Assembly (NCBI GenBank): GCA_005878955.1
Contig: VBMI01000092.1
Coordinates: forward strand, 1-42,973
Source of the DNA: Methanobacteriota archaeon
Lineage (GTDB): Archaea; Thermoplasmatota; Thermoplasmata; RBG-16-68-12
DNA length: 42,973 bases
Direction: 5' to 3'
Shown here: in pieces, positions 9,224-36,201 of the stretch
Position numbering within the stretch: the first letter of the stretch is position 1
How the letters are laid out: the number at the start of each line of letters is the position of its first letter
Notes under the pieces: generated by a model
Told to the model about the DNA's origin: nothing
The model's database searches: none
What the model saw: only the letters and a program-made list of their open reading frames with translations
Made by a program: the position numbers and the translations under genes

Positions 9224-9469
9224 TTACTTGAAGAAGTTCTCGATGTACTGGTAGCCGTACTTCATGAACCAGTAGATGAAGAACCCCGTGAGACCGATGA
9301 ACATGAGGCCCAGGCCTGTGATCATGACGACCTTCGAGTACTCGTCCGACGTCGGCTTGCGGGCCATCTTCAGGACGCGCCCGAAGCGGCCCTTCCCGAG
9401 GCGCTTCGCCCGCTCCTCGATCCTGCGCTGGACCTCCCAACTGCGGTCGACGATCTCGGGCATAGTCAC
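9224..9469 (-). CDS. secE: Preprotein translocase subunit SecE / Sec61 gamma
   Basis: Short single-TM protein ARKPTSDEYSKVVMITGLGLMFIGLTGFFIYWFMKYGYQYIENFF between ftsZ and spt5. Confidence 0.88.
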   Translation of the reverse strand: MTMPEIVDRSWEVQRRIEERAKRLGKGRFGRVLKMARKPTSDEYSKVVMITGLGLMFIGLTGFFIYWFMKYGYQYIENFFK

Positions 9470-10578
9470 CGCACCACGTCGACCCCGGCCTCACGCCCGC
9501 GGAGGGCCTCGCCGGGGCCGTAGATCTGCTTCGACTTCACGCCGGTCAGGATCAGCATCACGCGGAGCTTGTGCGGGAGCGCGGGGTCGACCGCCGCACC
9601 CCAGATGATCCGCGCGCTCGGGGAGATGCGGGCCTGCACGATCTCGGCGACCTTCTCCGCCTCGCTCACGGTCATGTCCGTCCCGCCCGTGACGTTCACG
9701 AGCGCCCCTGTGGCGCCGGAGATGTCCACGTCGATCAACGGGCTGTTGATCGCCTCCTCAATCGCCTCCTCCGCCCGGCGGTCGCTCTCGCTATCCCCGA
9801 GGCCGATCATCGCGACGCCGCCGCCCTTCATGATCGTCTTGATATCGTTGAAGTCGAGGTTCACGAGCCCCGGCTTCGTGATCACCTCCGTGATCCCCTT
9901 GATCGCCCGCATCAGGACGTCGTCGGCGACCTTGAACGCCGCGTTCAGCGCGAGCCTCGGGACGAGCTCGATGAGCTTGTCGTTCGGGATCACGATCACC
10001 GTGTCCGCGAAGTTCCGGAGCTTCTCGAGGCCGAACTCCGCGTTCTCCGCGCGGATCGCGCCCTCCGCCCGGAACGGGAACGTGCATATCGCGATCGTCA
10101 GGGCGCCCATCTCCTTCGCGATCTGCGCGACGAACGGCGCCCCGCCGGTGCCCGTGCCGCCCCCAAGGCCGCAGGTGATGAACACCATGTCGGCACCCTG
10201 GAGGGCCGTCCGGACCTCCTCCTCCGCCTCGCGGGCCGCCTCCTCGCCGACCTGCGGGAGCGCACCCGCCCCCAGGCCGCGGGTGACCCGCCGGCCGAGG
10301 AGGATCTTGTGGGGAGCGCGGATCGTCAGCAGGTGCTGCGCGTCCGTGTTCGCGGCATACAGCTCCGCGCCGATGATTCCCGCCTCGACGAGACGGTCGA
10401 TCGTGTTCGTGCCGCCGCCGCCGATCCCGATGATCTTGATGTTCGTCCGCAGGCTCGCGAGGATCCGCTCGAGTTCCGCGTCGTCCGCGGCGAAGCCCCC
10501 CGGGCCCTGCGTGGGGGCGTCCGGGACGCGGGGCTCCTCCCCCGCGCGTGTGATGACCTCCCTGACGATGGAATCCAT
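9466..10578 (-). CDS. ftsZ: Cell division protein FtsZ (paralog 1 in window)
   Basis: IGIGGGGTNTIDRL, AANTDAQHL, GLGGGTGTGGAPFVA tubulin signature; overlaps the secE start. Confidence 0.95.
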   Translation of the reverse strand: MDSIVREVITRAGEEPRVPDAPTQGPGGFAADDAELERILASLRTNIKIIGIGGGGTNTIDRLVEAGIIGAELYAANTDAQHLLTIRAPHKILLGRRVTRGLGAGALPQVGEEAAREAEEEVRTALQGADMVFITCGLGGGTGTGGAPFVAQIAKEMGALTIAICTFPFRAEGAIRAENAEFGLEKLRNFADTVIVIPNDKLIELVPRLALNAAFKVADDVLMRAIKGITEVITKPGLVNLDFNDIKTIMKGGGVAMIGLGDSESDRRAEEAIEEAINSPLIDVDISGATGALVNVTGGTDMTVSEAEKVAEIVQARISPSARIIWGAAVDPALPHKLRVMLILTGVKSKQIYGPGEALRGREAGVDVVR

Positions 10579-11266: not shown

Positions 11267-12367
11267 TCATCGAATGGAGTCGACCCCGTACCGCGCTCGG
11301 GCCTCTGCAGGGTCCTGGCGACCGAGGATCTGCTTCGACTTCACCCCGGTCGCGACGAGCATCACCCGCAACGTGTGTTCGAGGGTCGGGTCCACCGTGG
11401 CCCCCCAGATGATCCGCGCCGTGGGCGCGACCTTCTGCTGGACGACCTCGGCGCACCGCTCCGCCTCGCTGATCGTCATGTCCGTCCCGCCCGTGACGTT
11501 CACGAGGACGCCGTGGGCCGTGGAGATGTCGACCTCGAGCAGGGGCGAGTTGATCGCCTCCTGGATCGCCTCCGTCGCCCGCTCGTCGCCGACCGCCTGG
11601 CTCTCGCCCATGCCGATCATCGCGACGCCGCCGCCCTTCATGATCGTCTTCACGTCGTTGAAGTCGAGGTTCACGAGGCCGGGCTTCGTGATGATTTCCG
11701 TGAGGCCCTTGATCGACCGCATCAGCGTCTCGTCCGCGAACCGGAACGCGAGGTTCAGGGACATCCGCGGGACGAGCTCGAGGAGCCGGTCGTTCGGGAT
11801 CGTGATCACGGTGTCCGCGGCCTCCCGCAGCCTTTCGAGGCCCCACTCTGCGCTCTCCATCCGCATCTTCCCTTCGCCCCGGAACGGAAGAGTCACGACG
11901 GCGACCGTGAGCGCCCCCATCTCCTTCGCGAGGCGCGCGACGTACCCGGAGCCGCCGGTGCCCGTGCCCCCGCCGAGGCCGCACGTGACGAAGATGATGT
12001 CCGCGCCCTGGAGGGCCGCCTTCAGCTCGTCCTCCGCCTCGCGCGCGGCCTCCTCGCCGATCTGCGGCAGGGCGCCCGCCCCGAGCCCGCGGGTGACCCG
12101 CCGGCCGAGGAGGATCTTCTTCGGGGCCTTGATCGCCAGGAGGTGCTGGGCGTCCGTGTTCGCGGCGTACAGCTCCGCGCCCACGACGCCTTCCTCGCAG
12201 ATCCGGGCGATCGTGTTCGTGCCGCCGCCGCCCACGCCGACGATCTTGATGTTCGTCCGCATCTTGCTGAGGAGCTCCTCGAGCTCCGCGTCGACGCGGG
12301 AGTCCTCCGTCACGGGGCCCGGGCTCCGGGCCATGGCTTCCTCTAACATCGATTTCATAGGGTCCAC
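11267..12367 (-). CDS. ftsZ: Cell division protein FtsZ (paralog 2 in window)
   Basis: VGVGGGGTNTIARI, AANTDAQHL, GLGGGTGTGGSGYVA. Confidence 0.95.
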   Translation of the reverse strand: MDPMKSMLEEAMARSPGPVTEDSRVDAELEELLSKMRTNIKIVGVGGGGTNTIARICEEGVVGAELYAANTDAQHLLAIKAPKKILLGRRVTRGLGAGALPQIGEEAAREAEDELKAALQGADIIFVTCGLGGGTGTGGSGYVARLAKEMGALTVAVVTLPFRGEGKMRMESAEWGLERLREAADTVITIPNDRLLELVPRMSLNLAFRFADETLMRSIKGLTEIITKPGLVNLDFNDVKTIMKGGGVAMIGMGESQAVGDERATEAIQEAINSPLLEVDISTAHGVLVNVTGGTDMTISEAERCAEVVQQKVAPTARIIWGATVDPTLEHTLRVMLVATGVKSKQILGRQDPAEARARYGVDSIR

Positions 12368-28253: not shown

Positions 28254-28273
28254 ATACCTCTAAGCAGAGGTAT
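28254..28273. repeat. Palindromic repeat copy 1
   Basis: ATACCTCT-AAGC-AGAGGTAT perfect inverted repeat. Confidence 0.85.
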
Positions 28274-28508
28274 GCTCCCGCAGGATCCATCCCTCGACCC
28301 GAGCCCGCCGCCGCGCGAACTCCTGCTCCGCCTTCCCGTGGTAGGCGGCGATCCTCCGGAGAAGATCGCCACGGGCCCGATCCGAGTCCACGCGGCCGAC
28401 GTATTCCTCCTTCCTCAGGGACCTCCCTCCCTCGCGCTCGTAGTGCCAGAAGTAGAAGTACCGCCGGCCATCGAACTCGCGGACCCTCGCACCGCACCCG
28501 ATCTCCAA
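28260..28508 (-). CDS. Small basic protein bracketed by palindromes
   Basis: TTG start, 82 aa (EIGCGARVREFDGRRYFYFWHYEREGGRSLRKEEYVGRVDSDRARGDLLRRIAAYHGKAEQEFARRRARVEGWILREHTSA); AGAGGT seven nt upstream of TTG; stop inside palindrome 1. Confidence 0.55.
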   Translation of the reverse strand: MEIGCGARVREFDGRRYFYFWHYEREGGRSLRKEEYVGRVDSDRARGDLLRRIAAYHGKAEQEFARRRARVEGWILREHTSA

Positions 28509-28512
28509 CGTT

Positions 28513-28534
28513 CATACCTCTAAGTAGAGGTATG
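28513..28534. repeat. Palindromic repeat copy 2
   Basis: CATACCTCT-AAGT-AGAGGTATG perfect inverted repeat. Confidence 0.85.
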
Positions 28535-28663
28535 CCGCGGAGGGTCATGAGCCTTCGCCGGGGGTCCCCGAAACTACTCCGTGGTCGGCAGGACCCGACG
28601 CTCACGGGACCGGGGCGGCACCCCCTCAACCTTAATACCGGCCCCCCGAATCCGCACCGGCGC

Positions 28664-32238: not shown

Positions 32239-34746
32239 ATGCCGGAGGGAGCGCAGCAAGAACCGGGCGCGCGCATTCGCCTGCAGCCGATCGAGCAGGA
32301 GATGCAGCGCTCGTACATCGACTACGCGATGTCCGTGATCGTCGGGCGCGCGCTCCCCGATGTGCGCGATGGGCTGAAGCCCGTCCAGCGGAGAATCCTC
32401 TACACGATGAGGGAAGAGGGGATGACCTCCGGCGCCCAGTTCAAGAAATCGGCACGGGTGGTGGGCGGCTGTCTCGCAAGATACCATCCTCACGGCGACA
32501 TGGCGATCTACGACGCGCTCGCGAGGATGGTCCAGGACTTCTCCCTCCGCTATCCCCTCGTGCAGGGTCAGGGGAACTGGGGAAGCACGGAAGACGAGCC
32601 CGCTGCGATGCGGTACACCGAATGCCGATTGTCGAAGATCGCGGAAGAGCTCTTACAAGATATCGAGAAGGACACCGTCGATTGGGCGGACAACTTCGAT
32701 GGGACGCAGAAAGAGCCCTTGGTTTTTCCGGCGAAGTTCCCCAACCTGCTCGTGAACGGATCGAGCGGCATCGCGGTCGGGATGGCGACGAACATGCCGC
32801 CCCACAATCTCGCGGAGATTGTTGACGGGCTCCTGGTCCTGGTTGACAATCCGAACGCGACGTTGTCCGACCTCTACAACCCGGAGACGGGACCGATTCG
32901 TGGACCGGACTTCCCCACGGGTGGCGTGCTCCACGGCGTGGCGGGAGTCACGGAGGCGTACTCCACGGGACGCGGCCTCATCAGTGTGCGCGCGAAGGCC
33001 GGGTTCGAGGAGGGCAAGGGTGACAAGGTCCGCATCGTGATCACGGAGATCCCATACTTCGTGAATAAGAGCACGCTCGTCGAGTCGATTGCCCTCCTGG
33101 TGAAGCAGAAGCGAATCGACGGCGTCACGGACCTGCGAGACGAGTCTGACCAGGAGGGGATGCGGATCGTCCTCGAACTGAAGCGGGACGCGATCGAAGA
33201 CGTCGTCCTCAACCAGCTCTACCACCACACGCAGATGGACTCCACGTTCGGGATCATCAACCTCGCCCTCGTCGGCGGGGAGCCGAAGGTCCTCGGCCTG
33301 AAGGACCTCCTGCAATCCTACGTCGACTACCGGGTCGGGATCGTTCGAGCGCGGACGCAGTTCGACCTGAACAGGGCCCGCCAGCGGGAGCACATCGTCG
33401 AGGGCCTCCTCACCGCTATCGATCATCTCGACGACGTGATCCGGATCATCCGACGGTCGCGGGACGCGGAAGACGCGGCGGGCCAGCTCCGGACGCGGTA
33501 CCTCCTGAGCGAGGACCAGACGAAGGCGATCCTCGACATGTCTCTCCGCAAGCTCACGGGGCTCGAGACCCAGGCCCTGCGGACGGAGCAGGGGGAACTG
33601 AAGAAGACGATCAACGACCTGGAGGGAATCCTCGGATCAAAGGAGCGGGTCCTGAACATCATCAAGGGCGAGCTCCGGGAGCTGAAGGAGAAGTACGGCG
33701 ACGCCCGGCGCACGACGATCCTCGCCGTGGCGGAGGAACTCGAGGTCGAGGACCTGATCGCGGAGGAGGACAACGTCGTCACGATCACGAACACGGGCTA
33801 CATCAAGCGGCTCGCGGTCACCTCCTACCGGAGCCAGCGCCGGGGCGGCAAGGGCGTCACGGGCATGGAGACGAAGGAGGAGGACTTCGTCGTGAACCTG
33901 TTCGTCGCGTCCACGCACGATTACATCCTGTTCTTCACCTCCCTCGGGAAGGTGTTCAAGCTCAAGGCGTACAAGGTGCCGCTCGCGGGCCGGTACGCGA
34001 AGGGGAAGCCGATCGTCAACCTGCTCCCGCGGCTGGAGACCGGGGAGAAGGTGGAGGCGATGATCCCGACCCGGGAGTTCCCCGAGGACCGATACCTCGT
34101 CTACGCGACGAAGAAGGGGCGGATCAAGCGGACGAGCCTCGCGGAGTTCCAGAACATCCGCGTCTCGGGCATCCGGGCGATCAAACTTAACGAGGGGGAC
34201 GCGCTCATGGACGCGCAGATCGCACAGGGGGACGAGGAGGTCGTCCTCGCCTCCGCGGGCGGGTTCGCGAACCGCTTCCCGATCACGCAGGTGCGGCCGA
34301 TGGGGCGGACCGCGGCGGGAGTCGCCGGGATGCGGGTCCGGGGCGGGGACGAGGTCGTGTCGATGTCCCTGTCGAAGAACCCGGACGCGGAGCTGCTCAC
34401 CGTGCTCAGCAGCGGGTACGGAAAGCGGTCCACGCTCGTGTCGTACCGGAAGACCCGCCGCGGCTCCAAGGGCGTGCGGACGACGAGCGCGAAGTACGCG
34501 AAGGGGAAGGTCGTCACGGTCCAGATTGTGGAGCCGGACGAGCACCTGCTCGTGACGACGAAAGCGGGGGTCGTGATCCGGTGCCCCGTGAGTGACATCC
34601 GGGTGAAGGGGCGCGCCACGCGGGGCGTGCGACTCCAGCGCCTCGACGCGGGTGACGAGATCGTTGCGGTCGCTCGGCTCGTGGAAGAGGAAGAGCAGGA
34701 CGAGGCAGTGGGGCCACCCCCGCCCGCTCCGTCCCCTCCCGCCTAG
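32239..34746 (+). CDS. gyrA: DNA gyrase subunit A (bacterial type)
   Basis: [70 protein letters not shown]-terminal pinwheel repeats ([19 protein letters not shown]). Confidence 0.96.
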
Positions 34747-34783: not shown

Positions 34784-34805
34784 CGTACCTCTACTCAGAG
34801 GTACG
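34784..34805. repeat. Palindromic repeat copy 3
   Basis: CGTACCTCT-ACTC-AGAGGTACG perfect inverted repeat sharing TACCTCT/AGAGGTA with copies 1 and 2. Confidence 0.8.
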
Positions 34806-34839: not shown

Positions 34840-36201
34840 TCACAGGGCCATGATCATGCCCGCGATCGCCTTCATCGACCGCCGCGCGTCCTCGAGCCGG
34901 ATGTTCTCGTTCGGCGCGTGCGCCCGGCTCCCGTCGTACCCGACGCCGGGCGGGTGCGGCGACGGAGTGCCGACGCGGGTGAAGAACCATGTCGTCGACG
35001 ACCCCGCGGACCACGGATACACCAGGGGCTCCCCACCGTAGACCTCGCGGACCGCGGCCAGGATCGCCTGCGGGAGTCGCTCCCGGATCGATGACGACGC
35101 GGGCTCGAACGTGGAGTGCTTCTCGACCGCCACGTCCCCGAACCCCTTGTTCCGAAGATGCGCGACGAGCTTGTCGAAGACCGCGTCCGGCCGCTGCCCC
35201 GGGAGGAGCCGGAAGTCGAGCTTCGCGTGGGCCACCGCGGGGTTCACGGTCTTGTGGCCCGCCCCTGTGTACCCGCTCCACATGCCGTCGATCGTGCACG
35301 TCGTCCCGTACATGTACCGCTTCAGGCGCATGTACCGGGTCTTCCCGCCGAACACCTCGGTCACCCCGTAGATCTCCTTGTACGCGAGCGGGTCCGCGCT
35401 GTTCTTCCGGAGGTACCGCAGCATCTCCGGGTCCGGGGACGGGACGCCGTCCTCGAAGCCCTCGATCAGGACCTTCCCGTTCTCCGAGCGAAGGGTCCGG
35501 AGGGCCCCGATCAGCCGCCACGCCGCGTTCGGCAGGACCGTCGCGAGGGAGGAGTGCTGGTCCACCTTCGCCGTCCGCACCCCGAGCTCCACGCTGAGGA
35601 TCCCCTTCGACCCGAGGGAGAGCACGGGCTTCCCGCCCGCCGCGTGGTTCGCGGCCTCGATCGTCGCGCCGAGGCCCCTGAAGAGCTCCGGGTGCGCGTC
35701 CGCGAACGGGGGGAGGTGCGGGCTCCCGCTCTCCTCCTCGCCATCGAGGAGATACCGCACGTTCACCGGGAGGCGGCCCACGACGTCCCGGACCGCCTGG
35801 ATCGCGATCGCCTGGGCGACGCAGTTCCCCTTCGTGTCCGAGGTCCCGCGGCCGAAGAGCTTCCCGTCCCTGACCACGGGGTCGAACGGGTCGGACTCCC
35901 ACTCGTCGAGCGGGTCGACGGGCTGGACGTCGTAGTGGTTGTACAGGATCACCCATGGGAGGGACGGGTCCTCCTCGATCTCCCCGACGACGACCGGCGG
36001 GCCGCCCTCCTCGGGCATCACCCGCACGCGGGCGGCGTGGGCCTCGAGGACCTTCCGGGTCGCCTCGGCGCCTTCCGCGAACTTCGTTCCCTGGGCGGAG
36101 ATCGTGGCGACGCGGGTGTACTCCGAGAGCTCCCGCACGAAGTCGTCGAACCGCGAGTCGACGACGCTGTACACCTTCTGCCGGTCGGCGGTGTCAATCA
36201 T
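34840..36201 (-). CDS. M20 family metallopeptidase
   Basis: VILYNHYDVQPVDPLDEWESDPF...LFGRGTSDTKGN...LDGEEESGSP; MIDTADRQK start at 36201. Confidence 0.9.
   Translation of the reverse strand: MIDTADRQKVYSVVDSRFDDFVRELSEYTRVATISAQGTKFAEGAEATRKVLEAHAARVRVMPEEGGPPVVVGEIEEDPSLPWVILYNHYDVQPVDPLDEWESDPFDPVVRDGKLFGRGTSDTKGNCVAQAIAIQAVRDVVGRLPVNVRYLLDGEEESGSPHLPPFADAHPELFRGLGATIEAANHAAGGKPVLSLGSKGILSVELGVRTAKVDQHSSLATVLPNAAWRLIGALRTLRSENGKVLIEGFEDGVPSPDPEMLRYLRKNSADPLAYKEIYGVTEVFGGKTRYMRLKRYMYGTTCTIDGMWSGYTGAGHKTVNPAVAHAKLDFRLLPGQRPDAVFDKLVAHLRNKGFGDVAVEKHSTFEPASSSIRERLPQAILAAVREVYGGEPLVYPWSAGSSTTWFFTRVGTPSPHPPGVGYDGSRAHAPNENIRLEDARRSMKAIAGMIMAL

Follow-up and report, generated by a model that had tools for sequence, protein, structure and literature searches.

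A lineage-specific family of small Thermoplasmata proteins paired with palindromes at their own promoters and at a few gene ends, probably as autoregulated DNA-binding proteins

A small gene lying between two palindromes in the genome of a Thermoplasmata archaeon is more than a chance arrangement. The gene belongs to a lineage-specific, previously uncharacterised family, whose anatomy resembles that of the already known REP/RAYT systems. The genomic evidence assembled here makes it probable that these are DNA-binding proteins that each recognise a particular palindrome and control their own genes, with a few additional sites at the ends of genes.

The gene was noticed in a stretch of DNA of 42,973 nucleotides, referred to here as the window (Table 1). 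A sequence-only reading of the window had described a pair of 22-bp repeats with one mismatch between them and a minus-strand ORF that ends inside one copy and starts 5 bp from the other. Both are present exactly as described: the TAG stop (28260-28262) lies within P2, which also codes for the C-terminal residues HTSA, and the TTG start is 5 bp from P1. The description of each copy as a palindrome holds for the arms, in which TACCTCT pairs with AGAGGTA, but not for the central four bases, which are not self-complementary. These read RRRY or RYYY in 105/107 TACCTCT-type sites and in 63/65 sites of other types, and every site therefore also has an orientation. A third copy, overlooked in that reading, lies between the end of gyrA at 34746 and that of an M20-type peptidase gene at 34840. 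A search of the window for ATACCTCTN2GNAGAGGTAT with up to three mismatches gave six matches (three places, both strands), with 0 expected from 100 dinucleotide shuffles.

Table 1. Positions of the small gene and associated elements in the window
Feature	Position	Strand	Description
Palindrome P2	28254-28275	.	ATACCTCTAAGCAGAGGTATGC; downstream copy
Palindrome P1	28514-28535	.	ATACCTCTAAGTAGAGGTATGC; upstream copy, -26 to -5 from start codon; presumed operator
Small ORF, 82 aa	28260..28508	(-)	TTG start; called coding by codon model
Conserved upstream leader	28536..28584	(-)	AGTAGTTTCGGGGACCCCCGGCGAAGGCTCATGACCC...; common to relatives at other loci; presumed core promoter
Solo palindrome	34785-34804	.	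GTACCTCTACTCAGAGGTAC; convergent gap gyrA / M20-type peptidase gene

Genes in the window were called with a caller filtered on codon-position GC. The start codon of the small ORF (28506-28508) is TTG in the window copy and ATG in nearly all relatives. Elsewhere in the window, near ribosomal protein genes, a tubulin/FtsZ-like GGGGTNTI motif is present in each of two similar, closely spaced genes (9466-10578 and 11267-12358).

The small ORF is a genuine gene. The sequence-only reading had allowed that it might not be conserved; it is, and the median dN/dS over close pairs is about 0.12, which indicates purifying selection. In total, 102 distinct ORFs were gathered, nearly all of 75-87 aa and all from Thermoplasmata-type MAGs. 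The search covered 100 genomes, counting the window's own, of which 28 have relatives, and all 22 genomes of the window's own family carry between 2 and 9 gene copies. The second copy in the window's genome (C10:16285-16518) is likewise bracketed by palindromes. Among GTDB species genomes, a short peptide pattern found 92 relatives, of which 80 were kept. These come from MAGs labelled Euryarchaeota, Thermoplasmata or, once, Methanomassiliicoccales, many with labels that point to soil or sediment. Going by the labels, they probably belong to the GTDB order RBG-16-68-12, which has been named Ca. Angelarchaeales (PMC9038741).

Six alignment columns are invariant (M1, G4, G6, Y17, W21 and G38). 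AlphaFold predicts, with a pLDDT of 92, three strands (residues 5-12, 15-26 and 29-39) followed by a 38-residue helix (43-80). The protein has no match to a known family in Pfam, PHROG, NCBIfam or PADLOC, no match in a sequence search of the PDB and no relative in the viral contigs searched, and a literature search found no earlier description of the family. Foldseek returned nothing significant from the PDB (best E 0.11) or from the viral folds of BFVD (best E 0.018). The resemblance to Arm-type domains that had been suggested by eye agrees with the predicted topology of three strands and then a helix, but no significant match to a tyrosine-integrase Arm/AP2-like domain was found in either sequence or structure. 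Since the fold searches gave no significant match, the case for DNA binding rests on genomic association.

That association is strong. With a 22-bp palindrome defined by 8 or more of 9 pairs and sought up to 90 bp ahead of the ORF, 80 of 99 relatives have one, compared with 3.8% of random positions; about a fifth of relatives have none at this threshold. The upstream positions are tight, mostly -26, -36 and -56 to -60. In the window's subfamily, the palindrome lies at -26 to -5, and both its position and its arms are the same in close relatives, whereas in the other subfamilies it is mostly at -36 or about -58. In many clades, the centre of the palindrome reads TTAAATAA or TTAAGTAA and lies where a TATA box would be expected if the transcript were leaderless or had a short leader. 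A second copy is found near the stop of 52 ORFs. Many clades have no downstream copy, while relatives in the window's (TACCTCT) subfamily have one that covers the stop in the same layout, at -15.

The arms of the palindrome are specific to protein clades. Proteins with GCGAR go with TACCTCT, GCGVTTK with GTTAACCTT, GCGVY with GTTATAGTT, GCGYC with GTTATCGTT, GCGF with GTTACCCTT and GYGVR with GTTGGTCTT. Altogether, there are about ten kinds of palindrome, and each genome holds several natural protein-palindrome pairs. Distances between proteins and between arms are correlated (Mantel r 0.69, reached by 0 of 2000 permutations), a value to which shared descent contributes. Near the genes there are also 17 extra cognate sites, where 0.05 would be expected with shuffled arms. 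The palindrome has two traits expected of an operator, a fixed promoter position and covariation with the protein.

Several other features of these regions were observed. Hybrid palindromes made from two different half-sites (GTTGGCC...GGGTAAC) are recurrent (G000:C23, C32 and C41; G002:C49, C82, C87, C116 and C136) and, for one clade, are commoner than the symmetric ones. They could mean that two different paralogues bind such sites. A motif, TTCG-N2-3-RYCC, is present in 35 of 82 promoters of family genes. Its distance ahead of the palindrome is 15 bp in many clades, against 38 bp in the TACCTCT clade; it may be a shared promoter element, perhaps belonging to a general promoter. In relatives from the order, the GTTAACC palindrome is repeated 3-4 times in short arrays, at a spacing of about 57-62 or 79 bp (L046 7822-8344, L047 3505-3710, L049 5985-6126, L050 5441-5576 and L058 4621-4815). 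These arrays occur with or without an adjoining family gene, and some of their spacers are near-identical.

Beyond the genes themselves, the palindrome is rare. The exact palindrome occurs 8 times in the window's 2.15 Mb genome, or 9 times if one mismatch is allowed, and the 22 genomes of the family have at most 14 exact copies each, with none in one of them. The possibility raised earlier, that it would turn up at hundreds of gene ends without the ORF, is not what is seen in the genome or its relatives, and this rarity means that it is not a mass REP. Of 25 distinct solo positions, 2 are inside called genes and 23 are intergenic. Fifteen of the 23 follow a stop codon at a distance of 15-60 bp, where 19% would be expected (P = 1.9e-6), and seven are in convergent gaps (9% expected, P = 0.004); four distinct solo positions are between divergent genes. 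At several gene ends, the palindrome is present in at least two genomes whose flanking sequences align like shuffled DNA or little above it. The solo sites were gathered by exact arms, so that the identity of the arms at these sites partly reflects how they were chosen, while the shared positions are independent of that choice.

The most probable explanation is that the 82-aa protein, most likely as a dimer, binds the 22-bp palindrome carrying the arms of its own clade, here TACCTCT-RRRY-AGAGGTA. The upstream copy would be the operator. In most clades, its centre (TTAAATAA or TTAAGTAA) would fall on the place of the TATA box, and in the window's subfamily the palindrome would be at the approximate start of transcription; binding there would make the protein a repressor of its own gene. 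The sequence-only reading had offered a self-regulating palindrome-binding protein as one possibility, and this now appears well supported by the promoter palindrome, the clade-matched arms, the purifying selection and the retained solos. The downstream copy and the few solos would be further binding sites, most of them following a stop codon by 15-60 bp and many lying between convergent gene pairs. The likeliest role of the protein there would be in ending transcription, by serving as a roadblock or boundary, or else in shaping the chromosome locally. What the analysis shows is that the gene is real, that it is associated with the palindrome, that the arms match the clade, where the sites lie and that they are retained at shared gene ends. 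Binding, dimerisation, autorepression and, most of all, what the gene-end sites are for are what we infer from this arrangement. Of the roles proposed for those sites, that of a roadblock or boundary lends itself best to testing.

The junction between a DNA ligase gene and an EamA-type transporter gene is a telling locus. Three genomes (G018, G019 and G001) have no palindrome there. A single palindrome is found in six (G014, G013, G020, G008, G004 and G012) and a degenerate one in G015, while the whole unit of gene and palindromes is present in five (G003, G006, G009, G016 and G017). In G021, an intact palindrome stands beside an imprecise remnant, the last part of the ORF, and in G002 the site is GTTATGGTTAATTGACCATAAC, the palindrome type of a GCGVY paralogue. 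These states show that loss of the gene need not remove the palindrome, as would be expected if the site served a protein encoded elsewhere.

The same locus bears on whether the gene is a non-autonomous mobile unit, as had also been proposed from the sequence. The palindromes would then be the ends or targets of a unit moved by a recombinase acting in trans, and the solos would be footprints, as with REPs and RAYTs. In REP/RAYT systems, the gene sits between two palindromes, solo copies occupy tandem or convergent intergenic regions, and the type of palindrome tracks the type of protein (PMC2817692, PMC3733652). All of these layout traits recur in the archaeal family, with the extragenic palindromes biased to the 3' ends of genes. 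The TACCTCT subfamily, moreover, is found at six or more different loci, and the 49 bp leader of the window's gene recurs with 88% identity beside the palindrome of G002:C5, at a different locus; duplication to new places has therefore happened. There are one-palindrome sites at the ligase-EamA junction, and locus A, next to a presumptive valyl-tRNA synthetase gene, is unoccupied in G011, with no element at all.

However, most of the other paralogues stay in fixed neighbourhoods across up to 12-15 genomes. The 102 proteins have no HUH motif and no conserved His or Asp, and the IS200-type transposase domain Y1_Tnp (PF01797) is absent from all 15 family genomes searched, which are incomplete MAGs, while control genomes were positive. 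The leader found ahead of the gene is missing from the solos, and simple excision therefore does not account for them; the idea that they are excision footprints as a general rule was rejected on this ground, the one remnant being that in G021, which is imprecise. Exact sites number at most 14 per genome, not the more than 100 of REPs, and the flanking copies are direct rather than inverted. The gene-end positions, unlike those of REPs, are shared and kept despite diverged flanks. An insertion sequence or MITE would be expected to have terminal inverted repeats, a target duplication and unrelated insertion sites between close relatives. Here the flanking copies are direct, one subfamily is at several loci, and no clean insertion site with a target duplication was found. 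For the window's own locus, no clean empty site was obtained, the metB-like and cysS genes being farther apart in other genomes. What stands of the mobile-unit proposal is thus the relocation of the TACCTCT subfamily and the single palindrome with an ORF remnant in one genome. General transposition is unsupported, a mobile unit is an unlikely account of the family as a whole, and the comparison with REP/RAYT appears apt in anatomy only.

At locus A in G010:C114 and G016:C69 (L111, L113), the leader and palindrome precede a GNAT-like acetyltransferase gene that replaces the small ORF. An integron-like exchange of cassettes was considered and set aside, there being no second palindrome after that gene.

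An element acting at the level of RNA is less probable still. The palindromes would in this case be hairpins in the 5' and 3' untranslated RNA, with roles in stability, processing or translational autoregulation, and the protein would bind RNA. Solos just past stop codons would indeed fall in mRNA tails, and P1 adjoins the start codon in the window's subfamily. On the other hand, it is the arm sequence itself, beyond mere pairing, that is kept within a clade, and in many clades the palindrome centre, falling where the TATA box is expected, would be upstream of the transcript. No Rfam match was found at the element. In the hybrid sites, two neighbouring positions do not match, which would make a stem less stable, and the RRRY centre, found in both orientations, argues for a constraint at the DNA level. 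Together, the centre and the hybrid half-sites point to recognition of DNA rather than RNA.

Equally improbable are chromosome-organising or replication sites with an autoregulated binding protein, comparable to parS/ParB, matS/MatP or Ter/Tus. The palindromes are few per genome, and all nine TACCTCT sites of the window's genome, G000 (up to one mismatch), are on its two gene-bearing contigs, C10 and C123, which make up 65.6 kb of the 2.15 Mb (P about 3e-8 for the five solos). This clustering is not general, however, as most solos are on other contigs in G002, G003 and G008. Several paralogous systems with different palindromes coexist in one genome, and placement at gene ends is not expected of such sites.

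Among known systems, small autoregulated proteins of the MetJ/Arc or antitoxin-like type bind operators at their own promoters. The archaeal protein is likewise small, with a presumed palindromic operator at its own promoter and few extra sites, but its predicted sheet-sheet-sheet-helix fold has no significant match, its extra sites are at gene ends rather than promoters, and no operon pairing the gene with a toxin-like partner was seen. Tus/Ter and RTP also combine autoregulation through a site at their own promoter with a few sites elsewhere; the archaeal sites differ in that they are located at gene ends and are almost perfectly palindromic. For those gene-end sites, a parallel is offered by roadblock terminators (reviewed in PMC10310618) such as Reb1 of yeast, whose sequence-specific sites are just downstream of genes and between convergent units. 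The archaeal proteins have no homology to Reb1 and comprise several paralogues with separate sites, and here the roadblock is a proposed role. Within the Archaea, Cbp1 of Sulfolobales binds short repeats and has binding sites outside repeat arrays as well (PMC10883916). The present family resembles it in pairing an archaeal protein with short repeats, to which binding is predicted, and in the 3-4 palindromes at about 60-bp spacing found in order relatives, some beside the gene. Unlike with Cbp1, there is no CRISPR at the palindromes: a CRISPR array was rejected on the repeat layout, with single or double sites in the family and at most 3-4 in a row, some with near-identical spacers, in order relatives.

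The family provides an unannotated set of proteins with paired and diversified sites, and thus a ready data set from which to learn the rules of DNA recognition by a small sheet-helix protein. It also demonstrates that no transposase is needed for a REP-like picture to arise. Factor-dependent transcription ends in Archaea are poorly understood, and if the gene-end sites act on transcription, they would represent a protein-based separation of neighbouring genes. A more far-reaching idea, which we put forward as speculative and rather doubtful, is that a Thermoplasmata order has evolved paralogous, mutually distinct palindrome binders as roadblock factors at gene ends, each kept in check through the site in its own promoter. 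This would amount to a protein-based gene-end code of a kind not described in Archaea.
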